Shown: positions 4,641 through 58,696 of the stretch, piece after piece
Numbering within the stretch: position 1 is the first letter of the stretch
Layout of the letters: each line of letters begins with the position of its first letter
DNA from: a virus
Length of the DNA stretch: 60,001 nucleotides
Strand: one strand, 5' to 3'
IMG/VR virus record: IMGVR_UViG_3300021225_000464
Span: 1 to 60,001 of that record
Notes under the pieces: generated by a model
The model's input: only the letters and a program-made list of their open reading frames with translations
The model's database searches: none
What the model was told of the DNA's origin: nothing
Made by a program: the position numbers and the translations under genes

Positions 4641-4668
4641 AAAGGGAAGACGTGTCTTCCCTTTTTTT
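4641..4668. terminator. bidirectional rho-independent terminator
   Basis: Stem AAAGGGAAGA / TCTTCCCTTT with loop CGTG, followed by T-run; the opposite strand also has a T-rich tail. It separates convergent genes. Confidence 0.85.
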
Positions 4669-5101
4669 ATTTAATGGTGAATGTGACATCATCACCTTTT
4701 GAAAAAGAACCAAAAACTCTATTACCATCTTGGTATTCAGTGATAAACTCAAGAGTATCTTCATTTTCAATTTTACCAAGTGTGAAGTATGTTTTGGTAC
4801 CGTTATCATCAACAATACAATCAAAAACATTTTTTGTTTCAAAAATTTCAGTGATTGGGAAATCAAATTCCCCATTGAAATTAACTAGGTGAACTGTTTT
4901 TTTATTGAAGTCAAATGTGTAAACATTTTTCCCAATCCCATAGTCAGGATACTCTATCAAATCCATATCCATTGCCTGAAATGTTGGGACTAATGAACTG
5001 TGATTAAAATTTTGAAATTTTGTAGTTGTTACTGTAACAATTTGTCCATTAACAACTAAACTTGTTAGGGTAACTACTAAAGAAAGAAATAAGTTTTTCA
5101 T
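4667..5101 (-). CDS. secreted protein, paralog of the gene at 6004
   Basis: 144 residues starting MKNLFLSLVVTLTSLVVNGQ, a textbook Sec signal peptide with cleavage likely after NG-Q (about residue 20). The mature part is beta-rich, acidic and has one Cys. It is homologous to the protein at 6004: the N-termini are almost identical, while the mature parts share only scattered positions (for example TEIF/TEVF, Y-T-F-D/Y-T-I-D). The promoter is a perfect host type, unlike the surrounding late genes, so it may be made early and exported. Exclusion of other phages or surface remodelling would fit, but nothing in the sequence proves this. Confidence 0.75.
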   Translation of the reverse strand: MKNLFLSLVVTLTSLVVNGQIVTVTTTKFQNFNHSSLVPTFQAMDMDLIEYPDYGIGKNVYTFDFNKKTVHLVNFNGEFDFPITEIFETKNVFDCIVDDNGTKTYFTLGKIENEDTLEFITEYQDGNRVFGSFSKGDDVTFTIK

Positions 5102-5184: not shown

Positions 5185-5991
5185 ATGAAAAAAGTAATTA
5201 GACTAACTGAAAATGATTTAGTTAGAATTATAAAAAAAGTTATATCTGAACAAGATACAACACAAACTACTGGTACAACACAAACCACCACTCAAAGTCC
5301 TGATTTATCTAATTTAGGTATAAAAACACTTAATGGTGGTATTAAAGTTGTTGAGGTTCCTCAAAAACAAAGTCGTGATATAGAAAAAATTGCTAAACAA
5401 ACTGGCGATAAAGTTTATGGGGTAGGTAAATATGAAACAATAAGTTCAGTGGGTGGAAATTATCAGGGAATGCTTGTAGTTAAAAAAGAGGCGTATCAAA
5501 AATTATTATCAGACAAAGGTATTACTGTTGTGGAAGGGGAACATTGTTCTGAACCAAGATGGACAGGTAAAAAAGATAAAAATAATCCTACCGGTTGGGT
5601 GTACACATGGAAGGTAGGTAATGATTTTTCTAAATACGTTGTCAAACCATTACCATGGGATTTATTTAATAAAATACTTAATGAAAGAGGAACACCAGGA
5701 TGTCCTGACGATAGAGCAAATAGACACATGCATCCTAAACATAAAGGGGATTATTCAGGAGGTAATTTTACAGACCCAAAAGTAAGTCAAACGTCAAAGA
5801 ATTTCTTTAATGACCCAACCTCAAATTCAAATCTTAGAGCTTTTTGTAATAATTTAAAATCCACAAGTTTTTATCGTATTAATGGTTTTCCGGGTATATC
5901 GGCAAAATGTCCTGTATTTGTTGATGGTAGTGACGAAGATATGGAACGTTCATTTTCTACAAATGATTATATAAGGATTCAAGTTATTTAA
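5185..5991 (+). CDS. putative internal head protein with capsid-targeting leader
   Basis: 268 residues. The leader MKKVIRLTENDLVRIIKKV ends in I-S-E at residue 22. It is the clearest example here of the 'I-R-L-T-E-x-D-L' leader that I remember from many Bacteroidetes phage proteins. A Thr/Gln-rich linker follows (residues 24-37), then a globular part with HMHPKHKGD near residue 185 and Cys at about 118, 171, 217 and 233. The His cluster could bind metal, but I do not recognise the fold. I infer the leader targets it to the prohead. Confidence 0.65.
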   Translation: MKKVIRLTENDLVRIIKKVISEQDTTQTTGTTQTTTQSPDLSNLGIKTLNGGIKVVEVPQKQSRDIEKIAKQTGDKVYGVGKYETISSVGGNYQGMLVVKKEAYQKLLSDKGITVVEGEHCSEPRWTGKKDKNNPTGWVYTWKVGNDFSKYVVKPLPWDLFNKILNERGTPGCPDDRANRHMHPKHKGDYSGGNFTDPKVSQTSKNFFNDPTSNSNLRAFCNNLKSTSFYRINGFPGISAKCPVFVDGSDEDMERSFSTNDYIRIQVI

Positions 5992-5994
5992 TTA

Positions 5995-6022
5995 AAAACC
6001 CCTCTAACGAGGGGTTTTCTTT
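5995..6022. terminator. bidirectional rho-independent terminator
   Basis: AAAACCCCTC, loop TAAC, GAGGGGTTTT, then T-rich. The stop codon of the - strand secreted-protein gene lies in the hairpin. Confidence 0.9.
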
Positions 6023-6456
6023 TTACATTTAACATCAAAACACATGTAACCTTCAGTAGTTTCATTATTAATGTCATACTCAACTAACATATTAACTGAT
6101 TTATTATCATTTTTGTAAAGAACTACAACACCTTTAAAACCTTTAGTATCAACACATTCAAAAGAAATTAAAATATCGTTTGATGGATTTTTGAATACCT
6201 CAGTGATAACAAAATTAAATACCACACCCTCGCCATTTTTCATAGTTAAAGATTCATTATCAACATCAATAGTGTAAACAACTTCCCCCTGACCAAGAGT
6301 GGTATATGTGATTAAACCATTTTCCAAAGATGGGATAAAATTAACTTCTTTTGGATGTTGAAATTTTTGGATAGTATCGGTTTTTACAACAAATACTTGA
6401 GAGTTAGCAACTAAACCAACCATCACTAAAACAAGAGAAAGAAATAAATTTTTCAT
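6004..6456 (-). CDS. secreted protein, paralog of the gene at 4667
   Basis: 150 residues starting MKNLFLSLVLVMVGLVANSQ, a Sec signal peptide with cleavage likely after A-N-S. The mature domain is beta-rich and has two Cys near the C-terminus (about residues 108 and 142). It shares its first 8 residues and promoter almost exactly with the gene 1.36 kb upstream, while the mature domains have diverged strongly. This suggests duplication followed by selection on the exported part. Function is unknown. Confidence 0.75.
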   Translation of the reverse strand: MKNLFLSLVLVMVGLVANSQVFVVKTDTIQKFQHPKEVNFIPSLENGLITYTTLGQGEVVYTIDVDNESLTMKNGEGVVFNFVITEVFKNPSNDILISFECVDTKGFKGVVVLYKNDNKSVNMLVEYDINNETTEGYMCFDVKCKKKTPR

Positions 6457-10522: not shown

Positions 10523-10786
10523 ATGATACATGACGTTGATTACATAATTTCATTGCTTAAAAAATTAACTACTGATAACGAAAGAAGAAGTAGTAAAGAT
10601 GAATTAGGTGAACAAGACGCAGCTCCTGCGGGAGGTGGTGGTGGCGGAACTTCTAATACGAATAAGAGAGGTAGTAATTGGAATGAACTTTATGCGACAG
10701 TTAGAGGACCCGCAAACATGTTAGGTAAAAAGGGAGAGAAGTGGGACTCAGGGATTAAACGTGGTGTTGGTAATCAAGTTTGGTAA
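10523..10786 (+). CDS. small Gly-rich protein, possible internal head protein
   Basis: 87 residues. An N-terminal helix (MIHDVDYIISLLKKL) leads to E-L-G-E at residue 30, an L-x-E site. A glycine run (about 38-43) follows, then a conserved-looking block NWNELYATVRGPANMLGKK and GIKRGVGNQVW. I have the impression of related R-G-x-A-N repeats in virion proteins but cannot name a family. It lies 2 bases before the ATG of the giant protein at 10789 and is likely expressed with it. Confidence 0.55.
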   Translation: MIHDVDYIISLLKKLTTDNERRSSKDELGEQDAAPAGGGGGGTSNTNKRGSNWNELYATVRGPANMLGKKGEKWDSGIKRGVGNQVW

Positions 10787-10788
10787 AA

Positions 10789-13700
10789 ATGAATTCAAAT
10801 CAAAAAGAAATATTGGAAAGAGTTTTATTGATGATGAAATACGATTCATCTAAAACTTTGAATGAAAACATTAGTGAAATTAAAGTAATTAACGAACAAT
10901 CTTATAATTCTGATTGGGATGGGACATACGTTAATGGGACTAATAGTATTTATAATGGATTTGAAAGACCAAATTATATCGGTGATAAGAAAAAAACTGC
11001 AAAAAATTTAAGGGTTGTTGATATCCAACCTGTAAGTTTTGAAAAAATAATGGCTTGTAAAACAAAAACTAAAGGTGTTTTTGGACCAGTCACGGAAGAA
11101 GAGTTTAAAAAAAGATGTCAAAATTTAAGAAATTTTACTAATTCTTATTATGTTGATAGTAACGGTAAAATGATTATTCAAAATGGGTTACCGATTGACC
11201 CAAATACATATGGGGGTTCAGTGGGTCAAATGTTTACAGTGTGGCAATTAGTTAAACCAACTACTGAATTTAGAAATAAGTATAAAGATATTGCAACAGT
11301 AAGCGGGTCAGATAAATTAGTTCAAAATATGTCACTTAAAGAATTAAGTGATTATATATCTTACGGATTTTCAGAGAGTAGTGCGAGATTTGGTTTAACT
11401 AAAGAAATGAAAGACGCAATAATTCGTTTTGCTAAAAAAATTAAAAGTTTAAGTACGGAAGAATTAATTAATTTATCGTACAAATATCCATGTTTATTTG
11501 TTGAATCTAATTCCAAACAAGCGTCAATTAGTACGCCTAATAAAGTATCAAAAGATAAACTTTTATCACAAGGTGTTCAAGCAATGATAATTGATTTTGA
11601 GTTGTATAAAAGATATGATATGGAATATGATGAAAATCCTGAAAAGTTTAATTATCAACCAATAAGATATCCAAATTGGGATAATCTTATCAAATATTAT
11701 GGTTTAGATTTCTTAAAGGATTTTAAAGCTTCTGCGGACAAAGTAGTTGAGAGATTTGAAAAGGGTATAAAGGGTAGGACACAAGAGGGGTATCCTGATT
11801 ATGGAAGTAGATATTTGAATATGCAAGGTGCATTGGCGGATATGGGTTATATGAAGCATTATCAATTAATGAATAAAATAACTGTAACATTTCAAAACGC
11901 ACTTGAAAATTATAATAAAAAAAATGGAACAAGTTATAAAATGCCTTTAGAATGTGGAATGTCACAACAAGAAATTGCAAGAAGGGAAAAGTACAATGAA
12001 ACATGGTCTTATGATAATCCTATTAAAGAATGTGATTTACTTTTATCAGAATTAAGAAAAACTGCTTATCCTGAAATTAATAATTATTCACAAAATGAAA
12101 CATCAGAAAAGGAATCGGAAGAAGAAGCTAAAAAATTCTTAGACGAAAGAATTAAAAAAGAATTTATAAATATTGATATTGATAAAAGAACCTGGGGATA
12201 TCCTGATGAAAATGTAAAAGGACAAAAGGTTAGATTAGGCCCGGCAGTAACTTTTATGAATGAAAGTCAAGTTTCAAAAATAGTTGATTATTTACTGAAA
12301 AATTGTATTGGGCAATCTTATGGACAAGGTATTGAAAGCGGCTCTGAAAATTATTATTCAAAACCTTTATTGGGTATAAGTGTTGACCCATACCAAATTC
12401 CGTATTGTTTAAGATACAATTTAATTAAAGAAGAAGAAAATAATGATACAGAGGAAAGTGAAATTTCAATTTTTAAAGCAATTGTAAAATTAGCTGGAAT
12501 ACAAAAGGAACAAATAAGAATTATGCAAACCACTTATCCTGATAAACCTTACTTATGGCAAGATTACTTTCAGGGTGAACCAGGAACTTACGAGTATTAT
12601 AAGAAAAATTATTATGTTTATAATGCTGTTAGACAACACTTAATTCAAGACGGTAATCCAAATCCAACTGAAAAAGATGTTTTTGAAAAAATAAAATATT
12701 TCACTTACGATTGTATAGGTAGTAGAGATATTCTTAACAAAATTGCAAAAGGTAATTGGTTTTACAATGGTCAAAGAGTTGGTGAATACTATGCTGACAA
12801 TAAAGGTTATACTAAATATAAAATACCTTGTACAAATAAAACTTGGGATAAGTACGGTACGGTGATACAACTTGGAGGTATGATGTTAGTCGCTGCGGCC
12901 ACTTGGGGATTAGGAGCAGGACCGGCACTTGCGTTTTGGGTTAATATATTAACAGACACCGCATTAAATGCCGTTTCATTAAAATACTCAATAGAAGAAC
13001 AAGACCCATCTAAAATAAAAATGGATATCGCATTTTTATTATTACCATTTTTATTTGAAGTTAAACCTGTAAAGCAATTCTTTGAAGCGATGGGTAAAGT
13101 AAAAATAAATCAAGATGCTCTTAATTCTGTTATATCAAAATTTGCAAGTTTAGGTAACAACTTCACACCACAACAAGTTGAAAATTTGATTAAAAATATG
13201 AGTTCAGATGAAAAATTTGTCGTTAATATTATGATGGACGGTACTAACCCTCAAGTTCAAAAATATGTTAGTCAAATTTCAGACGGATTAAAAGCGAGTG
13301 TTAAATCAAGTGCTTCAACAAAAGCAGTATTAAAATCTTTAAAACCTGTCGCATTTCAGTTAGCAATTTTTGCAGTACCTGTAGCAACGTACTTTGGAAA
13401 AAAATTAGGTTTAATAAAAGAAAAATGGAAGTTGGCTACAGGTAAAGAAATAAATGAAAAAGAATTAAAAATTTTAGAACTTTTTTATTCATCATTATCC
13501 ACTGAAGATTCATTAAAAGTTGACAAAGTTTTATCTGAAAAACCTCAATTGATTGTTAATCTTGTACAATCACCTCAAGGTGAAGAATTATATAAGGGAG
13601 TTACAGGTATTAGTAAAATGACACCTGAAGAACAATTAAAAAGTATAAATAACCTTAAACAGATACATCAAAAAACGATTGAAAGATTAAGAAAAATGAA

Positions 13701-13845
13701 AGAACAATATAATCAAAATGTCCAACCTGAAAATCAAATTTCGACATCATCGGATTCGTCAAATTATGGAAACACAAATTTTGATGAAGTAATGAAATGG
13801 TTGGATGAAGATGATAAAGTTGTTATTGACAACCTTCAGAAATAA
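10789..13845 (+). CDS. giant putative internal virion protein (1018 aa)
   Basis: Start chosen at ATG 10789, not the TTG 9 bases upstream. The N-terminal helix is followed by a cluster of possible protease sites (L-N-E at 26, I-S-E at 30, I-N-E at 36). The next 650 residues are charged and Tyr/Lys-rich with no domain I recognise. Hydrophobic segments then appear at about 702-722 (IQLGGMMLVAAATWGLGAG), 747-757 (IAFLLLPFLF) and 862-878 (AFQLAIFAVPVATYF). Long leader-bearing proteins with late membrane segments resemble phage internal ejection proteins in layout; a polymorphic toxin is the alternative. Two similar large genes follow (13893, 15383), all on one strand. Confidence 0.65.
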   Translation: MNSNQKEILERVLLMMKYDSSKTLNENISEIKVINEQSYNSDWDGTYVNGTNSIYNGFERPNYIGDKKKTAKNLRVVDIQPVSFEKIMACKTKTKGVFGPVTEEEFKKRCQNLRNFTNSYYVDSNGKMIIQNGLPIDPNTYGGSVGQMFTVWQLVKPTTEFRNKYKDIATVSGSDKLVQNMSLKELSDYISYGFSESSARFGLTKEMKDAIIRFAKKIKSLSTEELINLSYKYPCLFVESNSKQASISTPNKVSKDKLLSQGVQAMIIDFELYKRYDMEYDENPEKFNYQPIRYPNWDNLIKYYGLDFLKDFKASADKVVERFEKGIKGRTQEGYPDYGSRYLNMQGALADMGYMKHYQLMNKITVTFQNALENYNKKNGTSYKMPLECGMSQQEIARREKYNETWSYDNPIKECDLLLSELRKTAYPEINNYSQNETSEKESEEEAKKFLDERIKKEFINIDIDKRTWGYPDENVKGQKVRLGPAVTFMNESQVSKIVDYLLKNCIGQSYGQGIESGSENYYSKPLLGISVDPYQIPYCLRYNLIKEEENNDTEESEISIFKAIVKLAGIQKEQIRIMQTTYPDKPYLWQDYFQGEPGTYEYYKKNYYVYNAVRQHLIQDGNPNPTEKDVFEKIKYFTYDCIGSRDILNKIAKGNWFYNGQRVGEYYADNKGYTKYKIPCTNKTWDKYGTVIQLGGMMLVAAATWGLGAGPALAFWVNILTDTALNAVSLKYSIEEQDPSKIKMDIAFLLLPFLFEVKPVKQFFEAMGKVKINQDALNSVISKFASLGNNFTPQQVENLIKNMSSDEKFVVNIMMDGTNPQVQKYVSQISDGLKASVKSSASTKAVLKSLKPVAFQLAIFAVPVATYFGKKLGLIKEKWKLATGKEINEKELKILELFYSSLSTEDSLKVDKVLSEKPQLIVNLVQSPQGEELYKGVTGISKMTPEEQLKSINNLKQIHQKTIERLRKMKEQYNQNVQPENQISTSSDSSNYGNTNFDEVMKWLDEDDKVVIDNLQK

Positions 13846-13871
13846 AAAAATAATTTTTTGTAGTTAATAAA

Positions 13872-13878
13872 TATTTAT
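13872..13878 (+). promoter_or_regulatory. TATTTAT late-promoter-like motif
   Basis: The motif ends 14 nt before the ATG at 13893. Confidence 0.4.
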
Positions 13879-13892
13879 AATTAAAAACGACA

Positions 13893-15377
13893 ATGAAAAA
13901 ACAAATATTGGAAGAAATTAATAGGTCTCGTGAAATTATGGGTCTTAAATTAATCACTGAATCTATTGGTGATGAAATAAGTGATATGGTATATGCATTG
14001 ATTAAAAATGTTGATTCTATAGAAGATGATGCAGTTGAAGCTATTGCATCACAAATGAGAAAGGCTGCAGACGCTGATGCGTTGGCTAAAAAAATAGATT
14101 TAGACAAGTATTTGGATGATATGTTAATAACAGGTAAAGTAAGTGACGACATTGCAGAATTACTTAATAAAGCAATTTTAAGTAAAAAAAGTTATACGGA
14201 TGTTGTTCGTAAACTTGTTAAAGATACTGACCCTTTATTAATAAATATAAAAAATACTATTTTAGATAATGACGCACTTGATTTGATTAAGATGTCAAAT
14301 ACTCTTGATGAGTTGAAACAACTTGAGACTGATTTATTAAACAATTTTAAAAATTATACTGACCCACTTGGTAATAATTTATCAGATGAAATGGTTGCTT
14401 TATATAAGAAAGATATTGATGATGCAACAGCTTCACGAAGAGCAGAATTGGAAGCTCCGGGTAAAATCGCTTCAGAAGCCTCAACCCAAGCTGAAAAACA
14501 AGCAATTAAAGATGCTGAAGATTTAATCAAACAAATTAAAAAAGAACTTTCCGGTGAAGGAAAAAAACTTACGAACAATCTTACGGTTGACCAAGTTATG
14601 GGAAAGTTGAAAACTATGACTGAAGAAGAAGTAATAACTTTTTATAAAAAAATGTCATCAAACACTCTGTGGAAATCTTTTTTAACATGGATGTCTAAAA
14701 ATGTTAATCCAAGGATTAAAAACTTTTTGCGAACAATAAAACTTTTAAAACTTGATGATACGGGTAAATTAGTTTTCAGACCTGGTATGTTAGCAGTTTA
14801 CGTATCTGTTATTGGTGGGGCTTATATTTTATTTGACATGTTTAGAACAAGTGAAAGTGAGTGGAAAGAGTTATATGATGACTTATTAAAAGTTTGTCCA
14901 AATGGAAAACTTGAAGATGGTGTGAACACATCGATAGCTGAAGATATTAAAGAAAGTAATACTTTAAGACCTGATTGGGTAATGTCCGTAGTTTACAATG
15001 GTGAAAAAACAGAAGTATTTTATGAAGATGGTCAGTGGTTCTTGAATATTAAAAGCGGAAAACCTGGTGAAGAATACCAAACTTTAAATTGTAACGATGC
15101 AAAATTGGCTGACAAGACGTTTGAAGAAATTGGGACAGACCCTACTATTAAAAAAGACGAAGAATCCAAAAAATTAGAAGCGGATAAAAACGATTTTATT
15201 ACTAAAGCTAATGCTTTTTATGGGGTTACGACTATTGGAAATTTAGTTACTATTGATGGTACTGTAATAAAAATCAAGTCGGATGATGGTACAGTATATA
15301 CGGTTGAAAAAAATGCTGATGGTAAGTTTGCTATAAAAGGTGCTGGAGCTTCTGGTGCTGATGTAATAATACCTTAA
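13893..15377 (+). CDS. putative internal virion protein, helical with one membrane segment
   Basis: 494 residues. The leader MKKQILEEINRSREIMGLKL ends in I-T-E at residue 23, with Ser next. A long helical, Ala/Asp/Lys-rich region spans about 25-270 (for example EASTQAEKQAIKDAEDLIKQ, coiled-coil-like). One hydrophobic segment lies at about 302-318 (MLAVYVSVIGGAYILFDMF). The C-terminal domain is beta-rich, with two internal strands-like repeats (DDGTVYTVEKNADGKFAIKG). It has the same overall layout as the protein at 10789. It is followed after 5 bases by 15383, so the two are probably one operon. Confidence 0.65.
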   Translation: MKKQILEEINRSREIMGLKLITESIGDEISDMVYALIKNVDSIEDDAVEAIASQMRKAADADALAKKIDLDKYLDDMLITGKVSDDIAELLNKAILSKKSYTDVVRKLVKDTDPLLINIKNTILDNDALDLIKMSNTLDELKQLETDLLNNFKNYTDPLGNNLSDEMVALYKKDIDDATASRRAELEAPGKIASEASTQAEKQAIKDAEDLIKQIKKELSGEGKKLTNNLTVDQVMGKLKTMTEEEVITFYKKMSSNTLWKSFLTWMSKNVNPRIKNFLRTIKLLKLDDTGKLVFRPGMLAVYVSVIGGAYILFDMFRTSESEWKELYDDLLKVCPNGKLEDGVNTSIAEDIKESNTLRPDWVMSVVYNGEKTEVFYEDGQWFLNIKSGKPGEEYQTLNCNDAKLADKTFEEIGTDPTIKKDEESKKLEADKNDFITKANAFYGVTTIGNLVTIDGTVIKIKSDDGTVYTVEKNADGKFAIKGAGASGADVIIP

Positions 15378-15382
15378 AAATA

Positions 15383-17308
15383 ATGAATACTAAAAATAAA
15401 AAAATAATAGTTGAACAACCAACATTTGGAAAAAGTTCTTCACCTACGGCATCATTTGGAGGAACTTCAGGGAATTCAGGTGGGGCATCATTTGGGGGGA
15501 CTTCAGCAAAATCAGGTGGGGCATCATTTGGAACAAGCTCAGGAAGTTCAGGTGGAGCATCATTTGGAAAGGGTTCAAATAAAAAAGATGAGAAACCTAA
15601 AGATGATAAGTCATCCGGAAAACATCCAGAAAACCAAGCGGAAGGTGATGCATTTAGAGAATGGATGAGTGTAAATCATTCTGATTTTAGATGTGGTAGT
15701 GACAAACTTGAAAATAAAAAAAATATGTCGTTTACTAATTTTTGTATAAAAGATGCTTGGGGTCAATTTGGTAAATCTTTTAAAGAAAAGTCAGGTACAT
15801 CAACAGGAGGTACTTCAAAACATGGAGAATTTCCAATTAATACTGTTGATTTATCTAATATGTTTAGAGAATGGGTTTATAAATATCGCAATGATTATGC
15901 AAGTAAACATACTGAATTAGAACGAAAAATATCTGACCCCAAAAAAAATGCAGATACCGCTTTAAAACTTGCTTGGGCACGATTTTCACAAGAATATATT
16001 GATTTTTTAAAGACAAGACTTAATGATAAACTATTGATGTCAACAGGTTCAAAATTAGAAAAATCTAATAATGATTGGGAAACTTCTGATTCGGCTTTAG
16101 AAATAGGTACTGAAAGAATATTAAAAGATGAAGAAACAGAATTAAAAAAATGTGAACCTTGGACCAAAGGGAATTCTATTGAAAAAGAGGTAGGTAGAAC
16201 ATCGTTTAGTTCTGTTAAAAACGACATGGCTAAAAGATTTGTTGAATGGATAAATGATGAAGGTATGCTTGACAGATATGTACCTGAAAATTTTTGTAAT
16301 ACTGATACTTTTAATACTGATTGGGTTGAGGAAAAATATACATATAATAATGTTGATAATGAACCGTACCAACACCCTTTACTTAAATTATTAGCAACAG
16401 TCAAAACGACAACTAAAAACACTAAAGGTGAAACAATTCCTGTTAGACTTTTTGAAAAATTTTTAAGAGAATCTGGTAAAGATGTTAATGTAAAAAAAGA
16501 TATTTCTCTTAGAAAAAGTGGGATACCATCTTTAAATTCACCATCAGAAACTTGGGCGGAAACAATAATTACCGCAGGACCAAATAAACCATTTTGTGTT
16601 GGATTAAGAAATTCGTTATCGTTAACATTTGAAAGTGGTAGTGAAATGGTTAAAAAAGCGATTGGTCTATGTAATTCAAAAAACTCTAGTTGGTTAGATA
16701 AAAGTTTAAAAGGAAAAGTTAAAACAAAATTAGGAGTTTTCCAAGAAAATAAAATGATAAAAGAAAGTATTGAAAACAAACTTAAATTAAAAAAAACCGA
16801 AAAAACTTTAATTAGTTTATCGGAAGATTTTAATAAACAAAATTATAAAAAATTCTTTGAAGCGTTAACTAAATTTAAAAAAAATAAAAATATCAACGAA
16901 TCAACAAATACTGAATTTGAAAAATCGTTTGATGTGATTTTTAAAGGAAAAGAAACTGAATTTAAAAATAGAGCAATAGAATATATTTTAAACAAGTTAG
17001 AAGTATCACCAACTTCAGACCTTGGAAAAAATATCAAATCTGAATTAGACAACATACCAGCAAAAGATATGTTTAAAAATGAATATGATGTTCCTGAAGC
17101 TATATCAAAAGCTGTTGAATTATCTTCACAATCAAATACTGAAGAACAAAAAGGCTTAAAAGGTATTGTTTCTAAATCAGTCAAATTTGACGATAAACAA
17201 ATCAAACAAGGTGTTAGACAACATCTTCACGATTATATTGAAGGAGTTAAAGATGATATTAAATCTTTGGAACAAAAATTAAAAAGTTCAATAATGAAAG
17301 ACATTTAA
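15383..17308 (+). CDS. large modular protein with GGASFG repeats and [FR]-x-x-W repeats
   Basis: 641 residues. A very short leader MNTKNKKIIVE gives an I-V-E site at residue 11. Residues 23-65 are 3.5 tandem copies of a 12-residue Gly/Ser unit beginning ASFG. Three related modules follow: EGDAFREWMSVNHSDF, LSNMFREWVYKYRNDYA and AKRFVEWINDEG, each followed by an A-W aromatic position. From memory such 'F-R-x-W-V...DYA...AW..YG' modules resemble peptidoglycan-binding-like phage modules. The C-terminal third is Lys/Glu-rich and helical. Likely a virion protein; exact role unknown. It ends convergently inside the HNH gene. Confidence 0.65.
   Translation: MNTKNKKIIVEQPTFGKSSSPTASFGGTSGNSGGASFGGTSAKSGGASFGTSSGSSGGASFGKGSNKKDEKPKDDKSSGKHPENQAEGDAFREWMSVNHSDFRCGSDKLENKKNMSFTNFCIKDAWGQFGKSFKEKSGTSTGGTSKHGEFPINTVDLSNMFREWVYKYRNDYASKHTELERKISDPKKNADTALKLAWARFSQEYIDFLKTRLNDKLLMSTGSKLEKSNNDWETSDSALEIGTERILKDEETELKKCEPWTKGNSIEKEVGRTSFSSVKNDMAKRFVEWINDEGMLDRYVPENFCNTDTFNTDWVEEKYTYNNVDNEPYQHPLLKLLATVKTTTKNTKGETIPVRLFEKFLRESGKDVNVKKDISLRKSGIPSLNSPSETWAETIITAGPNKPFCVGLRNSLSLTFESGSEMVKKAIGLCNSKNSSWLDKSLKGKVKTKLGVFQENKMIKESIENKLKLKKTEKTLISLSEDFNKQNYKKFFEALTKFKKNKNINESTNTEFEKSFDVIFKGKETEFKNRAIEYILNKLEVSPTSDLGKNIKSELDNIPAKDMFKNEYDVPEAISKAVELSSQSNTEEQKGLKGIVSKSVKFDDKQIKQGVRQHLHDYIEGVKDDIKSLEQKLKSSIMKDI
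15449..15577 (+). repeat. 36-bp tandem coding repeat (Gly/Ser, ASFG units)
   Basis: 3.5 copies of a 36-bp unit encode a 12-residue Gly/Ser unit beginning ASFG. The flexible linker separates the leader from the modules. Confidence 0.85.
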
Positions 17309-18500: not shown

Positions 18501-19118
18501 GTGAAGGAGATATTACCAACAATCATTACCTCGGTTACATCAATTGTTATTGCATTAATAACTGCAGGTTTCTTCAATATGATGAAGGAAAAAAGAGCAA
18601 AACAAAGTTCAAGAAATAAACTTTCTCAACAAATAGAAACAGATGAAATTGTTCATTCTACTTTAAGAGAAATTAGAAGAAAATATAATGCGGACAGAAT
18701 ATATGTGATTCAGTTCCATAATGGTGGTAATTTTTATACATCATCAGCAATGCAAAAAGCATCAGTTACATACGAAAGATGCTCTGATGGACTTGAGAGA
18801 ATAACTGAAAAAATTCAAAATGTATTTGTAAGTCATTACAATTGGTTAATAAAACAAACTATGGGTGATGGATTATTTATTCACGATTGTGATGTTATTC
18901 CCGATATTGCAACAAAGGCATTAATTAAAAAGTTTGGAACACAATCAATGGTTTCGTTACCTATTATGGACAGAGAAAATCATTTGATTGCTCTTCTTTG
19001 TATGGATTGGGTATTCAGTGAACACGTTGAAATATATTGTGAAAACGAAGAGTTTACAAAGAATTTCAGAGAAGACTTTAGAAAAGATGCTGAGTCAGTA
19101 AAAAACTTTTTAGTGTAA
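18501..19118 (+). CDS. membrane-anchored GAF-like domain protein
   Basis: 205 residues from a GTG at 18501, which follows an in-frame stop, so no earlier start is possible. One N-terminal membrane helix (about 4-25, LPTIITSVTSIVIALITAGFF) is followed by a basic stretch and a soluble domain beginning RRKYNADRIYVIQFHNGG. That phrase, with VSLPIMDRENHLIALLCMDW later, resembles a GAF-like sensor fold seen in phage inner-membrane proteins. Ligand and role are unknown. It overlaps the convergent zinc-finger gene by 9 bases. Confidence 0.65.
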   Translation: MKEILPTIITSVTSIVIALITAGFFNMMKEKRAKQSSRNKLSQQIETDEIVHSTLREIRRKYNADRIYVIQFHNGGNFYTSSAMQKASVTYERCSDGLERITEKIQNVFVSHYNWLIKQTMGDGLFIHDCDVIPDIATKALIKKFGTQSMVSLPIMDRENHLIALLCMDWVFSEHVEIYCENEEFTKNFREDFRKDAESVKNFLV

Positions 19119-19874
19119 ACTTGTTGAAGGTTTCCTTCCTTTACCATACACTTCACCGTCACCATCTAAACCCATGAAATAAGATACAGTATAATCTTCA
19201 GTTAGTTCAATACGGGTTTCATGAATTTCAACCTGACTATCTATTATGAAAGTTTTATTATTTGTTCGGTAATTTTCAATTTTATCTGATTCAATTTCAT
19301 TAAATCTTTCGAGTTCTGATAATTCAAGTTCAATTTCCTCATCAATACTGAAAAAATAATCAACTGATATTTCGTAAGTATCGTCCTGTTCTATATCGCC
19401 CGTACCATCACAAGTATCACAATTTAAGTGACCATCACCATCACACCATCCACATTCCGTTTTTCCACTACCTTGACAATCATCACAGGCATTACCTTCT
19501 TCATCTTCACCAGTTCCATCACAGTAACTACAATCTTCTTCTCCAGTTCCATCACACTGATTACAATCTTCTTGACCGTCACCACCACATGAACCACAAG
19601 TTTCCCTTACGCTAGAATCAATTACTTCACCCAATGAATAGGTAAACCCTTCATTTTCTACTGTCCATAAGATACTTTCAAATTCTTTCTCTCCCAAATT
19701 AATTCTTGAAATAAGATAGACTAGTTTAACAAAGTCCATTCCTGAAATGACAGAAACCATTTGGTAATAAGGACTATTTTTACTTTGAAGGACATTTGCT
19801 ATTTCATAAACCAAATCAGATTTTAATGACGAACTTAGTTTTTGAGCAATACGAATTAATTTACTGTTTTCCAT
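19110..19874 (-). CDS. DnaJ-type cysteine-rich zinc-finger protein
   Basis: 254 residues. Residues about 89-160 hold six C-x-x-C-x-G-x-G-like repeats (CGSCGGDG, CNQCDGTG, CSYCDGTG, CDDCQGSG, CGWCDGDG, CDTCDGTG), the zinc-binding region of DnaJ. No J-domain HPD is present, so it cannot recruit DnaK in the usual way. The flanking regions are acidic. It may be a stand-alone chaperone-like or protein-disulphide module. It shares a 15-bp intergenic region with the divergent M15 peptidase. Confidence 0.78.
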   Translation of the reverse strand: MENSKLIRIAQKLSSSLKSDLVYEIANVLQSKNSPYYQMVSVISGMDFVKLVYLISRINLGEKEFESILWTVENEGFTYSLGEVIDSSVRETCGSCGGDGQEDCNQCDGTGEEDCSYCDGTGEDEEGNACDDCQGSGKTECGWCDGDGHLNCDTCDGTGDIEQDDTYEISVDYFFSIDEEIELELSELERFNEIESDKIENYRTNNKTFIIDSQVEIHETRIELTEDYTVSYFMGLDGDGEVYGKGRKPSTSLH

Positions 19875-19889: not shown

Positions 19890-20783
19890 ATGTCATATCA
19901 AATGAATAAAAAAATATTACACGAACAATCTTTACACGAACTACGTAAGTTGGAAAATTTGTTTGAAGAAGAATCAAGTGCACGTCCTGTTGCTTCAAGT
20001 GTTAGAAGTCATCTTGAAGGTTTAGGTTATGAAACTAAAAAGACAATGGACCAAGCTGGTGATTTGACACCTCAATTTGGAGATACGTTAAAAAAAGTTG
20101 CGACTGCATTTAAAGAAAAACTACCTCATTTAAAAATTAGATTTGGTTCAGGTAGAGATTTATTTCACAAAGCGTTTCCTAATAGTAGACACAACAAAGG
20201 TAACGCAATTGACGTAGTATTTAAAGGGATTGATAAAAGTGATGACAGTGAGTTAAATAAAATATCTACATTACTTTGTGCGTTAAGAAAGAAATATCCT
20301 GGTTTTACATTTATTGATGAGTATAGAAGACCAACTAGATTTTCTACAGGTGTCCACTATCATTTATCATATTCTGATAAAAAAACTGATGAAGGTGGTG
20401 GTACATCTGAATTTTGTTCATCATTAAAAAATATTGATAATTTGGACGATATTGATTTTGATTCAGTTGAATTAATTGAAACAAAAGAAACTCAAAAAGA
20501 ACCATCAAAACTTGATAAGTTTTTGGATTATGTTGGTTTAGGTGATTTGAATAGTGCAACTGCAGGTGATAAAGGAAGTCAAAAAACTTTAGTTGATAAA
20601 GCTAAAGAACTTTTTTCAGATGATGATGTTAAAGACACTGATGACGGATTTGAAATCTTTGGATATAGTGTTGATGATATTTTAGATAAAGTTAAAGGTG
20701 TTTTACCTAAGTTTGAATCTGAAGAAAAGAAAAAAAATCTTTTAGAAGATATTGAAAAAATTAAATCAAAAATGATTAAATAA
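19890..20783 (+). CDS. M15-type peptidoglycan peptidase with leader-like N-terminus
   Basis: 297 residues. NSRHNKGNAIDVVFKG (about 94-109) matches the S-x-H-x-x-G-x-A-x-D metal site of M15 D,D/L,D-peptidases, and GVHYHLSY (about 154) supplies the H-x-H. These should cleave peptide cross-links in the wall. The N-terminus MSYQMNKKILHEQS has an L-H-E site at residue 12, and the C-terminal half is an acidic low-complexity tail. A wall hydrolase with a head-targeting leader would be unusual; an endolysin or tail-associated role is the alternative. Confidence 0.75.
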   Translation: MSYQMNKKILHEQSLHELRKLENLFEEESSARPVASSVRSHLEGLGYETKKTMDQAGDLTPQFGDTLKKVATAFKEKLPHLKIRFGSGRDLFHKAFPNSRHNKGNAIDVVFKGIDKSDDSELNKISTLLCALRKKYPGFTFIDEYRRPTRFSTGVHYHLSYSDKKTDEGGGTSEFCSSLKNIDNLDDIDFDSVELIETKETQKEPSKLDKFLDYVGLGDLNSATAGDKGSQKTLVDKAKELFSDDDVKDTDDGFEIFGYSVDDILDKVKGVLPKFESEEKKKNLLEDIEKIKSKMIK

Positions 20784-36217: not shown

Positions 36218-36937
36218 ATGCAAAATTATAAAATATTAGGACCAAGAGAGACAGGAAAAGGTATTTTAATTGAAATGGATGCGGGATATGTTTCCCCAAC
36301 AGAAAAGAATAATCAAACATTTCTACAAGAGAGTAGAGACTTTAAAGATTATTCTAAACCATTTGAATTCTATGCCGTTCTACAAAAATATAACACACCA
36401 AATAGAAACGGTAGAATATATCCTGAAAGAATTCTAAAAAGAGAATCTGAAAATTATATAAAGAACTATATTGGTAAGAAAACTGCATTGTCAGAACTTA
36501 ACCACCCTGAGTCTTCATTAATAGATTTAGATAGAGTATCACACATGATTACAGAGATGTGGTGGGATGGTAATGTTCTATTAGGTAAACTATTACTTCT
36601 GACTTCACCAGGGTTCCATGAAAGAGGTATCGTATCAACAAAGGGTGACCAAGCGGCAAACCTATTAAGATTAGGTGTAACGTTAGGTATATCGTCAAGA
36701 GGGGTAGGTTCACTTAAAAAGGTTGGGGACCAAAACGAAGTACAGGATGATTTTGAATTAATTTGTTTTGACTTAGTGTCTTCACCATCAACACCAGGAG
36801 CTTATTTATTTACTGAACCTGATGGTAGATTTGCGTTTGAAGAAAACTTACAAGAAGAAAATGAAATGAAAGCTGCAAGAACAGTTAACAAATCGCTTGA
36901 TTTAATGGGAAGACTTACCGATTATTTAGGAAAATAA
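36218..36937 (+). CDS. prohead protease (T4 gp21-like)
   Basis: 239 residues. NRNGRIYPERIL (about 63-74), ALSELNHPES (about 89-98) with the catalytic His, and GVTLGISSRGVGSL (about 148-161) with the catalytic Ser are the hallmarks of the T4 gp21 family. This serine-type protease trims capsid, core and internal proteins after [LI]-x-E. An N-terminal stretch with LQES at 37 could be its own activation site. The many [LI]-x-E leaders elsewhere in the window are its likely substrates. It lies directly upstream of a small DUF4494-like gene and the scaffold. Confidence 0.95.
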   Translation: MQNYKILGPRETGKGILIEMDAGYVSPTEKNNQTFLQESRDFKDYSKPFEFYAVLQKYNTPNRNGRIYPERILKRESENYIKNYIGKKTALSELNHPESSLIDLDRVSHMITEMWWDGNVLLGKLLLLTSPGFHERGIVSTKGDQAANLLRLGVTLGISSRGVGSLKKVGDQNEVQDDFELICFDLVSSPSTPGAYLFTEPDGRFAFEENLQEENEMKAARTVNKSLDLMGRLTDYLGK

Positions 36938-37275: not shown

Positions 37276-38652
37276 ATGGCAGAAAAAAACTTAGTTGAAG
37301 AAGCATTAATCCAAATACAAAATTTGGAAGAAGCTATCAATGAAAACGCAAAAGAAATACTTCATTCTACAATGAAAGAAGAAATTAGCGAATTAGTAAA
37401 AGAGTCTATGAAAAATGAGGCTGAAGAAGAAGATGAATTTGAAGTTGAAGACGAATTTGAATCTGAAGATGAATCAGAAGAAGATGACGAATTTGAATCA
37501 GGTGACGAGTCTGAAGAAGACGAGGAAGAGATTGAATTCGGAACTGAAGATGATGACGATTCTGAAGAAGACGAATTTGACATGTCAAATTTATCTGATA
37601 TGGGTGGTGATGACGAAATTGATTCTATTGAGATTCAAGATTTATCTGACGAACCAATGGAGAAAGTTTTAAAAGCTTTCAAAGAAATGAAACCAACTGA
37701 TTCTTTTGAAATTAAGAAAGAAGGTGATTTTATTCATTTAAAAGATGAAGACGATGAATACCTTATTCAAAATGGTTCTGAAGATGAAGAGGAAGAATTT
37801 GAGTTCTCAGATGAAGAAGACGAATTAGAAGAAGTCGTTTACGAAATTGAAATGAATGAAGAAGCTGAAGAAGAAGAGTACGAACTTGAAGAAAGTTGGT
37901 CTGAAGAAGAGGAAGAAGAATACGAACTTGAAGAAGACGTAGTATTTGAATCTACAAAACCAAAAGTTGGTAAAGGAGCATCAATTGGTAAAGCCAAATT
38001 TGAATATAAAAAATCAAAAGGTGGTTTTAACGAAAAGAAAGCTCACGCTAATCCAACTAAAGGAACAGGTAAACCTAAGTTTGAATTCAAAGAAGGTGAA
38101 ATGTTTGAAATGGATAGTCCAACAGGTTCTGAAAAATTCACAAAAAAAGAAGCTAAAGAAGCCGCTCGTACTTACGGATTTGGTTCTAAAAAAGGACGTG
38201 GATTAAGAAAGGCAGTTACTCCAAACAGAAACTTGACTTTTGAAAGCCGTGAAATTATGGAAGAACTTGAAATGTTAAGAGCGAAAAATGAAGAATACAG
38301 AAAAGCTTTAAATATGTTCAGAGATAAACTAAATGAAGTGGCAGTATTTAATTCAAATTTAGCTTATGCAACAAGATTGTTCACTGAACACTCAACTTCA
38401 AAACAAGAGAAAATCAATGTTTTAAGAAGATTTGATTCAGCAGATACTCTTAAAGAATCTAAAGCACTTTATAAGACAATAAAAGAAGAGTTAAGTGGTA
38501 ACACTACTAAAACTCAAATGACAGAATCTATTGAAAGAGTTGTTGAAAAAACTCCACAGTCAGGTTCAGCAGTTAATCTGATTGAATCTAAGACTTATGA
38601 GAATCCTCAATTCTTAAGAATGAAAGATATCATGTCAAAAATAATAAAATAA
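37276..38652 (+). CDS. prohead scaffold/core protein (T4 gp22-like)
   Basis: 458 residues. Residues about 45-110 and 170-235 are very long runs of Glu, Asp and Ser. A basic middle follows (about 240-320, GKAKFEYKKSKGG). A helical C-terminal domain contains EIMEELEMLRAKNEEYRKAL and KINVLRRFDS. The helical end with L-R-x-F-D resembles the T4 gp22 C-terminus that contacts the capsid protein. Scaffold proteins of this family are degraded by the prohead protease; I-Q-N-L-E-E-A-I-N-E at residues 13-22 gives an N-terminal site. Confidence 0.85.
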   Translation: MAEKNLVEEALIQIQNLEEAINENAKEILHSTMKEEISELVKESMKNEAEEEDEFEVEDEFESEDESEEDDEFESGDESEEDEEEIEFGTEDDDDSEEDEFDMSNLSDMGGDDEIDSIEIQDLSDEPMEKVLKAFKEMKPTDSFEIKKEGDFIHLKDEDDEYLIQNGSEDEEEEFEFSDEEDELEEVVYEIEMNEEAEEEEYELEESWSEEEEEEYELEEDVVFESTKPKVGKGASIGKAKFEYKKSKGGFNEKKAHANPTKGTGKPKFEFKEGEMFEMDSPTGSEKFTKKEAKEAARTYGFGSKKGRGLRKAVTPNRNLTFESREIMEELEMLRAKNEEYRKALNMFRDKLNEVAVFNSNLAYATRLFTEHSTSKQEKINVLRRFDSADTLKESKALYKTIKEELSGNTTKTQMTESIERVVEKTPQSGSAVNLIESKTYENPQFLRMKDIMSKIIK

Positions 38653-38680: not shown

Positions 38681-40543
38681 ATGGGAGCATTATTAGAAAG
38701 TGGATTAGTAGGTAACATCGGTCTTAAGCACTTGAAAGTTATCAAAGAAGACACTATAAACAAATGGGACAAATTAGGGTTCCTTGAAGGTCTTAGAGGC
38801 CACCTAAAAGAAAACGTTGCTCAGTTATATGAAAACCAAGCATCACATTTAATTAACGAAGCTACGACTGACGGAGCATCAGGTTCATTTGAAACTGTTG
38901 TATTCCCAATCATCAGACGTGTATTCTCTAAATTATTAGCTAACGAAATCGTTTCTGTACAAGCTATGAACTTACCAATTGGTAAATTGTTCTACTTTGT
39001 ACCTCAAATCCAAGGTTATACTGGTGCTACATCAACTCCAGGTGGTGTACCAGGTGTTGCTAATCACCAAGCTCCATATGGTTCTCCAAATGGACCATCA
39101 ACTCCAGGTGCTGGATATAATGATTCAAACGCATATCCTAAAAACCTTTATGATGCATTCTACGAAGGAACTGAGCCAGGGTTAAACCCAGGTGGTCTTT
39201 TTGATTATTCAAAAGGTGCATGGTATTGGGTGACAGGTGCAACTAACACTGTTGCTTGGTCAAACGGTACATTAATCTATTCAGCATACGGTGCTGGTGA
39301 ATATAGAAAAGTTCTTATCACTTTATCAGGTTTCACAAACGCTGGTGAGGGTAAATTAATTGCTCCTGATGGACAAGAAATGGATACTGAAACATTCTTA
39401 TCTGATTTAACACTTTTCCCATCACAAGGTTTGGCTAACCAAATCAATACTTCAGGTGGAAATGTTGGACTTTATACTCCACTTTTATATCGTGTTGTGA
39501 CACAAAAATATGGTAAAGGTATTGTACAGTACGGTAGTACTCAATCAACTACTTTCCCTGATATCCCACGTGGTACTGTGTCTTACCCAGGTAACGGTGG
39601 TTCTTATAATAATGTATGTTCTCAAGATGGTAACATCATCTTAGAAATTGACTTACAAGTTCCAGCATGTATTTCTTGTAGTCAATCAACTCCTGATGGA
39701 TACACAGGAACAACTATCTTAGCTGGTTCAGGTGCTACTAACGATTCATTCGTTAAGGCATATTGGAAGCGTTACCAAGAAATGGAATTTGAAGACAGAA
39801 TTGGTGAAGTTTCTTTTGACCTTCAATCAGTAACAGTTTCTGTAACTGAAAGAAAGTTAAGAGCACAATGGTCTCCAGAACTTGCTCAAGACGTTGCGGC
39901 GTTCCACAACATTGATGCTGAAGCTGAATTAACAGCTTTATTATCTGAACAAGTTGCTGCTGAAATTGACCGTGAAATCTTACGTGACTTACGTAAAGGT
40001 GCAGCGTGGACATTACGTTGGGATTACAACGGATGGAAGCGTCTGAATAACCAATCAACTCCTTATACTCAAAAGGACTGGAATCAAACGTTGATTACTG
40101 CAATCAACCAAATTTCAGCTCAAATCCACAAGTCTACTTTAAGAGGTGGAGCAAACTGGATTGTTGTATCTTCTGAAATCAGTGCTATTTTTGATGACTT
40201 GGAATACTTCCACGTATCAAACGCGGCTCCTGAGCAAGACCAATTCAACATGGGTATTGAAAGAGTTGGTACTTTAAGTGGTCGTTACCAAGTATACCGT
40301 GACCCATACTTCCCACCAAACACTGTGTTGATTGGTCACAAAGGTACTTCTTTATTGGATACTGGATATATCTACGCTCCATACGTACCACTACAATTAA
40401 CTCCAACTATGTATAACCCATTCAACTTTACTCCAATCAAGGGTATTATGACACGTTACGCTAAGAAAATGGTTAATAACCGTTTCTACGGACGTATCAT
40501 CGTTGACGGTGTTCGTACATTTGACTTAAACGAATTAAGATAA
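38681..40543 (+). CDS. major capsid protein (T4 gp23-like)
   Basis: 620 residues. The N-terminal propeptide ends ASHLINE at residue 60, with Ala-Thr-Thr next, matching the T4 gp23 processing site (cut after Glu-65). The core has RVFSKLLANEIVSVQAMNLP, LRGGANWIVVSSEISAIF (about 488), YRDPYFPPNTVLIGHKG and YAPYVPLQLTPTM, ending MTRYAKKMVNNRFYG. An insertion of about 60 Gly/Pro/Asn-rich residues (about 110-170) makes it longer than T4 gp23. It follows the scaffold gene by 28 bases and is closed by a strong terminator. Confidence 0.96.
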   Translation: MGALLESGLVGNIGLKHLKVIKEDTINKWDKLGFLEGLRGHLKENVAQLYENQASHLINEATTDGASGSFETVVFPIIRRVFSKLLANEIVSVQAMNLPIGKLFYFVPQIQGYTGATSTPGGVPGVANHQAPYGSPNGPSTPGAGYNDSNAYPKNLYDAFYEGTEPGLNPGGLFDYSKGAWYWVTGATNTVAWSNGTLIYSAYGAGEYRKVLITLSGFTNAGEGKLIAPDGQEMDTETFLSDLTLFPSQGLANQINTSGGNVGLYTPLLYRVVTQKYGKGIVQYGSTQSTTFPDIPRGTVSYPGNGGSYNNVCSQDGNIILEIDLQVPACISCSQSTPDGYTGTTILAGSGATNDSFVKAYWKRYQEMEFEDRIGEVSFDLQSVTVSVTERKLRAQWSPELAQDVAAFHNIDAEAELTALLSEQVAAEIDREILRDLRKGAAWTLRWDYNGWKRLNNQSTPYTQKDWNQTLITAINQISAQIHKSTLRGGANWIVVSSEISAIFDDLEYFHVSNAAPEQDQFNMGIERVGTLSGRYQVYRDPYFPPNTVLIGHKGTSLLDTGYIYAPYVPLQLTPTMYNPFNFTPIKGIMTRYAKKMVNNRFYGRIIVDGVRTFDLNELR

Positions 40544-49214: not shown

Positions 49215-49952
49215 TTAGTCAGGATTTACCTGTATTAATCCAGTATACAATTTTTTGAATTTTTTCATTGAAGCTCTTATTTCTTTTGTTGACATGTTTG
49301 TCATTTCACGTAAAGATAAAAGGATGACATTTTTATTAAATTTATTATTATCAGTTGCTGGAAAAATAGTTTCGTAGTTTTCTAAAATCTCAACTAAAGA
49401 TAATCCTAATTTAAGTTCACTTTCATTTAATTCATTTTCCTCAATGATTTCTTTAATATAATCAATAAGAATTGGTATAAGATTAACTTCCTCAGGTTGC
49501 TCAATATCTAAATAATAAATCATTTGAGGTGCGTTTTCTAAATCACCTGAAATATCTTCATATGATATTTTTCTATTTGTTTCTTTTTGGTCTTTTAATA
49601 TTTGACCCATTAAATAGTTTTTACAAATAGTACCAAAATACGAATAGGCTTTCTTTTCTTTTGAAGGACTAAATTTATCAATTTTAGTCATTAAAAATGA
49701 ATGAGTATCAGTATGAATTTCATAAAAATCCATGTCTTTTCTATATAATTTATATCTTCTAATAATTGAAGATATCATCTTATCTAATGGAAATCTTAAA
49801 AACTCATTATAAATTTTATTTTTTTCCTCAAAAGTAGAAGCAGTCAGGAACATTCTGACTGCGTTCTCTTCTCTTATGTCAAAGTAGTTTTCAGTGCTCT
49901 GTTTTTTCTTTTTAGTAACAGAAATCTCTATTGAGCTTGCGCTTAGTATCAT
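49215..49952 (-). CDS. late sigma factor (T4 gp55-like)
   Basis: 245 residues. FSPSKEKKAYSYFGTICKNY (about 94-113) followed by GQILKDQKETNRKISYED is a sigma-70 region 2 helix pair of the reduced type found in T4 gp55 relatives. No region 4 with a clear -35 binding helix is seen, although the C-terminal 80 residues are helical. It should direct RNA polymerase to phage late promoters, most likely the TATTTAT sites. Its ATG overlaps the preceding stop (TAATG at 49952), so it is coupled to the glycosyltransferase. Confidence 0.75.
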   Translation of the reverse strand: MILSASSIEISVTKKKKQSTENYFDIREENAVRMFLTASTFEEKNKIYNEFLRFPLDKMISSIIRRYKLYRKDMDFYEIHTDTHSFLMTKIDKFSPSKEKKAYSYFGTICKNYLMGQILKDQKETNRKISYEDISGDLENAPQMIYYLDIEQPEEVNLIPILIDYIKEIIEENELNESELKLGLSLVEILENYETIFPATDNNKFNKNVILLSLREMTNMSTKEIRASMKKFKKLYTGLIQVNPD

Positions 49953-50758
49953 TAAGCATTTTCAGCAACATATTTTATGTTTCTATCTTCAGTAAAGAAA
50001 TACTCTTTTCTAGCCGAAGAAACCCAAAACTTAACTTCACTCTCTGATAATTTATCAGAACCATTCTTATATTCCCAAAAAATAGAATCTTCTCTTAAAT
50101 TGGTGTGTTTATAACCAATTTTTGGGATAGTCATTATTTTAGCTGAGTTATATGTTAAACGGAGTAAAAATTCATAAACAAATGTTAATTTTACACTTGG
50201 TTTAAATCCTCCAAAATCCTCAACCAATGATTTTTTGAAAACCATTCCAGATGTTTGGAAATTTTGATATTGTAATAAAGTATCGTTTGTTAAATAACCA
50301 ATTTCTTGTGAGAAATTAGCCGCAAAGGTTGCTTCATTAGTAAATCCTTGAAATGTTAATTTATTATCAACTTCTACAACTATTGGTAAAAACGCATCTA
50401 CATCATTGTAAGATTCAATATATTTTTTAACATTTTTAAACCATATTTTAGAATACTCATCATCAACTTCTAAAATACTTACCCATTTAGTTTTAGTGTT
50501 TAAAATTGCAAAATTTACTTGATTTGCAAAATTTGGTTCATCCTCAAACTCTAAAATAGTTGTAGTTAAATTTTTAAAATCGTAATTTTTTAAATAATCT
50601 GATAAATTTTTATCTTTACCATGAATAATAGTTACGTTTTTAGGTAAAATTTCTTGGTTTTGAATTGACTCAATAGACTTTTGAAAAAAATCTTCAAAAT
50701 CCTTCATCAACATATTTTTAATTGGTAAAATTACACTTAAGTCTAAAATATTTTCCAT
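49952..50758 (-). CDS. family 2-type glycosyltransferase
   Basis: 268 residues. LSVILPIKN at the N-terminus, a Q-N-Q-E-I-L-P motif, and WVSILEVDDEYSKIW with a D-D-E metal site mark a GT-A fold. FQTSGMVFKKSLVEDFGGF is the acceptor-side segment typical of GT2. It would add sugars to a glycan or to phage proteins in the cytoplasm; there is no membrane helix. Follows the GT-B gene by 2 bases. Confidence 0.8.
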   Translation of the reverse strand: MENILDLSVILPIKNMLMKDFEDFFQKSIESIQNQEILPKNVTIIHGKDKNLSDYLKNYDFKNLTTTILEFEDEPNFANQVNFAILNTKTKWVSILEVDDEYSKIWFKNVKKYIESYNDVDAFLPIVVEVDNKLTFQGFTNEATFAANFSQEIGYLTNDTLLQYQNFQTSGMVFKKSLVEDFGGFKPSVKLTFVYEFLLRLTYNSAKIMTIPKIGYKHTNLREDSIFWEYKNGSDKLSESEVKFWVSSARKEYFFTEDRNIKYVAENA

Positions 50759-50760
50759 AA

Positions 50761-51819: not shown

Positions 51820-51822
51820 AGT

Positions 51823-52086
51823 TTAATATTTTTGAATTATTTTATTATTTAATAATGTATTAAATGCTAATTTAAATGGTATTGACGCTGATGCTTTATC
51901 ACCTAAGGTTTCGTCAACCTCTTCAGTTTCACTTAAAACAACTTCTAACATCATTTTAATTATTTCATATTGAACAACTCCTATTTGTTGTTCTGTAGAC
52001 CCCGATGAATTTGGTGTGTCTATATTAATAATTGATTGAGCGGATTCTAAATCAATGTAATAATGTTCCCCCAGTATTTTTAACAT
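51823..52086 (-). CDS. small hypothetical protein
   Basis: 87 residues; starts MLKILGEHYYIDLESAQSII, acidic and helical afterwards. Overlaps the upstream HAD-like gene by 35 bases in another frame. Not recognised; operon position suggests coexpression with phage assembly and glycan genes. Confidence 0.5.
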   Translation of the reverse strand: MLKILGEHYYIDLESAQSIINIDTPNSSGSTEQQIGVVQYEIIKMMLEVVLSETEEVDETLGDKASASIPFKLAFNTLLNNKIIQKY

Positions 52087-55269: not shown

Positions 55270-55322
55270 TAAATGTTTTTTAGTTTAAATAACACAGTAA
55301 TTGTATTACCGTACATATTTTT

Positions 55323-56189: not shown

Positions 56190-56193
56190 ATTT

Positions 56194-57805: not shown

Positions 57806-57806
57806 A

Positions 57807-58694: not shown

Positions 58695-58696
58695 AT

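Follow-up and report, generated by a model that had tools for sequence, protein, structure and literature searches.

We analyzed a stretch of viral DNA of 60,001 bases (IMG/VR record IMGVR_UViG_3300021225_000464; hereafter the window), which belongs to a T4-like phage as judged from Pfam matches to the Gp23 major capsid protein and an S77 prohead protease. By capsid protein, the nearest named isolates were Microcystis phage Mel-JY01 (42% identity, 56% query coverage) and Flavobacterium phage immuto (44% and 39%), matches that do not fix the host. An earlier note on this DNA had pointed to three consecutive open reading frames (ORFs) of 1018, 494 and 641 residues, and these are real, nearly contiguous and all on the plus strand. 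Gene 1 (10789..13845) encodes 1018 amino acids from an ATG, or 1021 from a TTG at 10780, and has a hypervariable body. Gene 2 (13893..15377) encodes 494 amino acids, and gene 3 (15383..17308) 641 amino acids that comprise a short leader, a low-complexity linker, two copies of a module that we call FRxW, a middle region and a conserved C-terminal region. Directly upstream of gene 1, outside the region covered by the earlier note, lies a fourth member of the cassette, gene 0 (10523..10786, plus strand; 87 amino acids), with a proposed cleavage at LGE30|Q (...KDELGE|QDAA; bars mark cuts) followed by a Gly-rich linker. Together, these four genes probably form a hypervariable cassette that encodes internal proteins of the head (ejection proteins), unusually large ones in the case of genes 1-3. 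The evidence obtained by computation comprises the anatomy and conservation of the leaders, the protease, a matching site in the capsid protein, replacement of the protein bodies and reuse of a leader.

None of the three large proteins could be assigned to a family, as the earlier note had also reported: no Pfam match exceeded its cut-off, and no PHROG match was significant. A tblastn search with the three proteins against 50,697 phage records, T4 included, gave no match, and a scan with gene 3 across 84,980 species genomes gave no relatives. Named phage records held no match for two of the leader peptides and none for the FRxW module. A literature search that covered mainly open-access papers found no such cassette described for Bacteroidota or aquatic T4-like phages. 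Relatives came from 33 viral contigs, some of which repeat one another, found by scanning with the three large proteins and with alignments built on them (loci are numbered L below). Contigs holding the cassette keep the order small protein, gene 1, gene 2, gene 3, and an HNH gene follows gene 3 wherever the contig stretch extends that far. In these contigs, complete copies of gene 1 encode 553-1018 amino acids, gene 2 446-826 and gene 3 465-662.

Leaders resemble capsid-targeting propeptides

Leader-like N-termini, which the earlier note had claimed for the three large proteins, are present on all of them. In gene 1, the leader region (residues 1-37; 10789..10899) reads MNSNQKEILERVLLMMKYDSSKTLNE|NISEIKVINE|Q and has two proposed S77 sites, TLNE26|N27 and INE36|Q37. 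The gene 2 leader (residues 1-23; 13893..13961), MKKQILEEINRSREIMGLKLITE|S, has a proposed site at LITE23|S24. In gene 3, the leader (15383..15415) is merely 11 residues long, MNTKNKKIIVE|Q, with a proposed site at IVE11|Q12. The leaders of genes 0-3 all terminate in [I/L/V]-x-E, which is the motif of the T4 prohead protease gp21.

We tabulated this motif in 19 loci, the window included, by seeking [ILV]xE within residues 1-42. It was found in 12 of 13 gene 0 products, 19/19 for gene 1, 18/18 for gene 2 and 16/17 for gene 3; the exceptions were gene 0 of L069 (MSE|Q) and gene 3 of L075. Glu30 of gene 0 was present in all 18 aligned rows. The short leader of gene 3 kept the motif and little other sequence.

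Because the alignment scans for genes 1 and 2 had used patterns lying inside the leaders, leader conservation is partly circular. We therefore recounted invariant columns in rows found without leader patterns, namely the window, L002 (found via gene-1 body patterns) and contigs found via gene 3. Left out were loci found via leader patterns alone (L055, L058, L060, L069, L074 and L075), repeated copies of one cassette (such as L006, L007, L040, L041, L043 and L047), the cut copies L011 and L050, and gene 1 of L004, whose length and leader equal those of L005. In the 14 remaining gene 2 rows, all seven invariant columns fell within the leader, Glu23 among them (P = 2.5e-10). In the 13 gene 1 rows, 8 of 15 invariant columns did so (P = 7.4e-9). 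Residues E26, N27, E36 and Q37 of gene 1 were invariant in 13/13 rows despite variable spacing between the two sites; at the first site, E-N was kept throughout, but the P3 residue was Tyr in L042.

The leaders lack the hydrophobic core of a secretion signal. The best 11-residue Kyte-Doolittle scores within residues 1-35 were 0.97, 1.25 and 0.15 for genes 1, 2 and 3, in contrast to 2.29 and 2.97 for two Sec-like signal peptides on minus-strand genes of the same window. A Sec signal or lipoprotein leader was thus ruled out. That the leaders are export signals, with the proteins secreted or displayed on the surface of the infected cell, would fit their N-terminal position and the hydrophobic segments inside the proteins; we regard it as extremely improbable, given the missing core and leader ends that carry a prohead-protease motif also present in the capsid protein. 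Most likely, judging from sequence, the leaders of the three proteins are capsid-targeting propeptides of the kind used in a T4-type head. The two Sec-like signal peptides themselves (MKNLFLSLV...; 4667-5101 and 6004-6456, both minus strand) resemble each other on differing bodies, and similar ones occur in contig G004.

A prohead protease and a matching site in the capsid protein

The window encodes a Peptidase_S77 prohead protease of the gp21 class (36218..36937, plus strand; Pfam E = 9.4e-27, 94.2 bits against a cut-off of 27; PHROG 207, E = 3.3e-44), which we propose as the processing enzyme for the leaders. Section 2.5 of PMC9026906 describes T4 gp21 as cleaving after L/I-X-E. The major capsid protein Gp23 (38681..40543, plus strand; Pfam E = 2e-71) has a proposed propeptide of residues 1-60 ending at INE60|A61, a site that aligned with LTE|A of T4 gp23, LRE|S of T4 gp24 and VSE|A of the immuto capsid protein.

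A further proposed S77 site, INE506|S507 (16892..16900), lies inside gene 3. All 15 aligned rows have [IL]-N-E|[AS] at this position (residues 504-506), which resembles the capsid-protein site, falls inside the most conserved, C-terminal region of the gene and occupies a low-confidence loop of its AlphaFold model (residues 499-516). According to PMC9026906, C-terminal processing also occurs in T4 Alt; gene 3 may therefore be trimmed at both ends.

The same site bears on the alternative that these are scaffold or inner-core proteins, which enter the prohead via their leaders, serve assembly and are fragmented by the protease, without being delivered to a cell. The invariant site within the best-conserved part of gene 3 speaks for such a role, as does the fragmentation of T4 gp22 and other core proteins by gp21 that PMC9026906 describes. 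However, the excess of internal sites in gene 3 is not clear in genes 1 and 2: the observed/expected ratio of [ILV]xE[QSANG] in the mature bodies was 0.74 for gene 1, 1.21 for gene 2 and 1.63 for gene 3. A separate acidic ORF adjoining the protease (37276-38652) is a candidate scaffold. In genes 1 and 2, moreover, the bodies have a much higher rate of divergence than the genes around them, which makes these two genes unlike assembly proteins. We consider a scaffold role distinctly unlikely.

Bodies are replaced while flanking genes are conserved

Across loci, the genes neighbouring the cassette in the window showed median identities of 70-95% with nearly full coverage, except for 19110-19874 (47%). 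Median identities for genes 1, 2 and 3 were 32%, 30% and 49%, with median coverages of 0.30, 0.92 and 0.52. The gene 1 bodies of L005 and L008 were 16-17% identical to that of the window in a forced alignment, whereas their leaders were 49% identical; a profile of the gene 1 C-terminus listed the L008 body only at E = 0.77 and did not list the L005 type. These results indicate that the bodies are hypervariable or replaced among relatives, while the flanks are conserved.

One leader is reused on an unrelated protein. A protein of 526 amino acids in L049 begins with the gene 2 leader (E = 1.2e-7) and carries a Peptidase_M23 domain (37.7 bits against a cut-off of 28.7); its significant match to gene 2 is confined to the leader. 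In the window, a leader-bearing protein encoded at 19902..20783, or 19890-20783 (plus strand), is 41% identical to this L049 protein. We also compared 45-residue segments of 262 proteins encoded by the window and contig G004 and counted the pairs of families that matched each other. The N-termini yielded 30 such cross-family pairs, whereas residues 46-90 yielded 1, C-termini 0, middles 1 and three shuffles 2, 1 and 1.

A broader possibility is that a family of large T4-like phages places interchangeable capsid-import tags on many unrelated proteins, so that the virion would be a modular effector-delivery particle. The three giant proteins would then be the part of the load that varies most, a membrane-active complex specific to the host that is ejected before the DNA or together with it. 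We hold this extension to be rather unlikely.

Leaders were also noticed on several other proteins. A MKKIIRLTESDLTRIIKRVIAEQ-type leader is found on several unrelated proteins in L026-L038 (contig G004, about 222-242 kb) and also at 5185-5991 of the window. In the immuto isolate we noticed similar leaders by eye, for example MKKQILSEQFRRMQKLAGIITE|S. An 841-amino-acid hypothetical protein of immuto (L025:14007-16532; MW353175), encoded a few genes upstream of the terminase, starts MKKLIRIVE|A and could serve as an experimental stand-in.

Hydrophobic segments, modules and folds

The earlier note had placed internal membrane helices in two of the three proteins. This holds for gene 2, which has one convincing segment (predicted helix at residues 299-317, 14787..14843; 19-residue Kyte-Doolittle score 1.82), but not for the window's copy of gene 1, in which no 19-mer reached 1.6. 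The hydrophobic stretches of gene 1 at about residues 700-770 (12886..13098) are weak in the window copy and stronger in most relatives. A segment scoring at least 1.6 was present in 10 of 13 gene 1 rows (10/12 besides the window copy) and in 8 of 11 gene 2 rows. These hydrophobic segments suggest that the products of genes 1 and 2 contact a membrane.

This bears on whether the three proteins, once ejected, assemble into a conduit across the envelope, as the ejection proteins of T7 or P22 do; genes 1 and 2 would provide its membrane parts. Such a conduit would be a special case of ejected head proteins and compatible with that reading. The fixed order in which the genes co-occur in the tabulated contigs favours the idea, and the hydrophobic segments fit membrane insertion. 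A weak match to the tape-measure family TMP_2 was also seen in 2 of 13 gene 1 rows (E = 2.1e-5), but it was absent from six gene 1 proteins rechecked singly, and we take it as chance or compositional. No fold supports a conduit. T4-like phages have a contractile tail and are not known to need an ejected conduit. We consider the conduit possible but doubtful.

Structure prediction of single proteins, a route that the earlier note had suggested, led to no recognized fold for gene 1 or gene 3. The AlphaFold model of gene 1 (predicted local distance difference test, pLDDT, 46) was unusable and too poor for a fold search; that of gene 3 was partial (pLDDT 58.9) and matched no PDB structure at E <= 0.001. 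A match of the gene 3 model to the viral protein A0A6J5L6E4 (E = 2.3e-5) was not interpretable, with a template modelling (TM) score of 0.13-0.17. PDB sequence searches with genes 1 and 3 gave no match of note, including to T7 gp14-16 or P22 gp7/16/20.

The two FRxW copies in gene 3 (copy 1, 15629..15793, about 55 amino acids; copy 2, 15839..16012) belong to no known family. One or two copies are common to gene 3 and to gene 1 of L044, L048, L052 and others; 24 segments were found at E < 0.05, and 22 of them were aligned. We took a GAL4 match for the module (E = 0.017) and a CENPH match in 1 of 15 gene 3 rows (21.7 bits against a cut-off of 27) as chance or compositional.

Comparison with known internal head proteins

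The T4 internal proteins (IPs) IPI, IPII and IPIII and Alt (Straboviridae) offer a close parallel. They likewise have a short N-terminal propeptide that ends in L/I-x-E and is cut by the S77 protease, with a conserved leader and diverse bodies; T4 ipII and ipIII begin MKTYQEFIAE|A. PMC3012670 describes T4 internal proteins as diverse, with the capsid-targeting sequence alone conserved; according to that paper and PMC9391042, IPI acts as an inhibitor of a restriction enzyme, and T4 requires IPIII on one strain of E. coli. By contrast with the 494-1018 amino acids found here, T4 IPs are about 8, 10 and 20 kDa (PMC9026906). Unlike the T4 IPs, the giants of the window form a fixed gene cassette, and we saw no sequence homology to the T4 IPs or Alt. 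Sequence features support their membership in the functional class of T4 internal proteins.

Size need not preclude packaging. DarB of phage P1, likened here by description and not by sequence, is a Dar protein of 250 kDa that is packaged into the capsid by means of a targeting signal at its N-terminus, for which the first 30 residues suffice (PMC9024508); very large proteins can therefore be packaged through an N-terminal signal. P1 differs in apparently having no separate scaffold, unlike T4, as the same paper describes, and DarB in having a known antirestriction role. The ejection proteins of the giant phages SPN3US and phiKZ are similarly inner-head proteins whose N-terminal propeptides are cut by a prohead protease, often at several sites, as PMC10052503 and PMC5694885 describe. 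Their propeptides, however, are mostly >100 residues, and cleavage follows a different motif, AXE for SPN3US and SQE for one phiKZ example. The tblastn search of phage records showed no relation between these proteins and ours.

Proposed route from prohead to host cell

By analogy with T4 (PMC3012670; PMC9391042), we infer packaging, cleavage, ejection and a function in the cell along the following lines. The N-terminal propeptide would bind the prohead core and so direct each protein into it. The gp21-class S77 protease would then cut after [I/L/V]-x-E and free the mature body, with gene 1 cut at two sites and gene 3 also at residue 506. Mature bodies would remain in the head alongside the DNA and pass into the host cell upon infection; there, the rapidly diverging bodies may meet host-specific targets, either the envelope or first-response defences. 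The earlier note's suggestion of virion proteins that the phage delivers to its host thus gains indirect support from propeptide-like leaders, a matching protease and bodies that evolve like host-interacting cargo.

Several points weigh against this assignment to the ejected head contents. [ILV]xE is a weak motif that many proteins lacking a leader of this kind also have close to their N-termini; because the motif alone is common, its position matters. No such leader is present on gene 3 of L075. With 23-37 residues, the leaders of genes 1 and 2 exceed the 10 residues of the T4 IPII/IPIII leader, from which they also differ in sequence. Cleavage motifs are not selectively lost from the mature bodies, part of the excess of shared N-terminal 45-mers is due to a group of five families with Sec-like signal peptides and to some chance-looking pairs, and the folds of genes 1 and 3 went unrecognized.

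If the proposed route is correct, the leaders would provide a rule by which the injected proteins of a poorly known group of large T4-like phages could be listed from sequence, with no need for virion purification. The rule would point to very large, fast-changing, family-less proteins that probably encounter the envelope or the defences of the host, and the T4 strategy of a conserved tag with variable cargo would extend to proteins several times bigger than the T4 internal proteins.

Two other features of the window were noted by eye. The protein encoded at 19110-19874 (minus strand) has repeated CxxCxGxG motifs resembling DnaJ zinc fingers, and 49952-59320 (minus strand) holds a series of glycosyltransferase-like and sugar-nucleotide enzyme-like ORFs.

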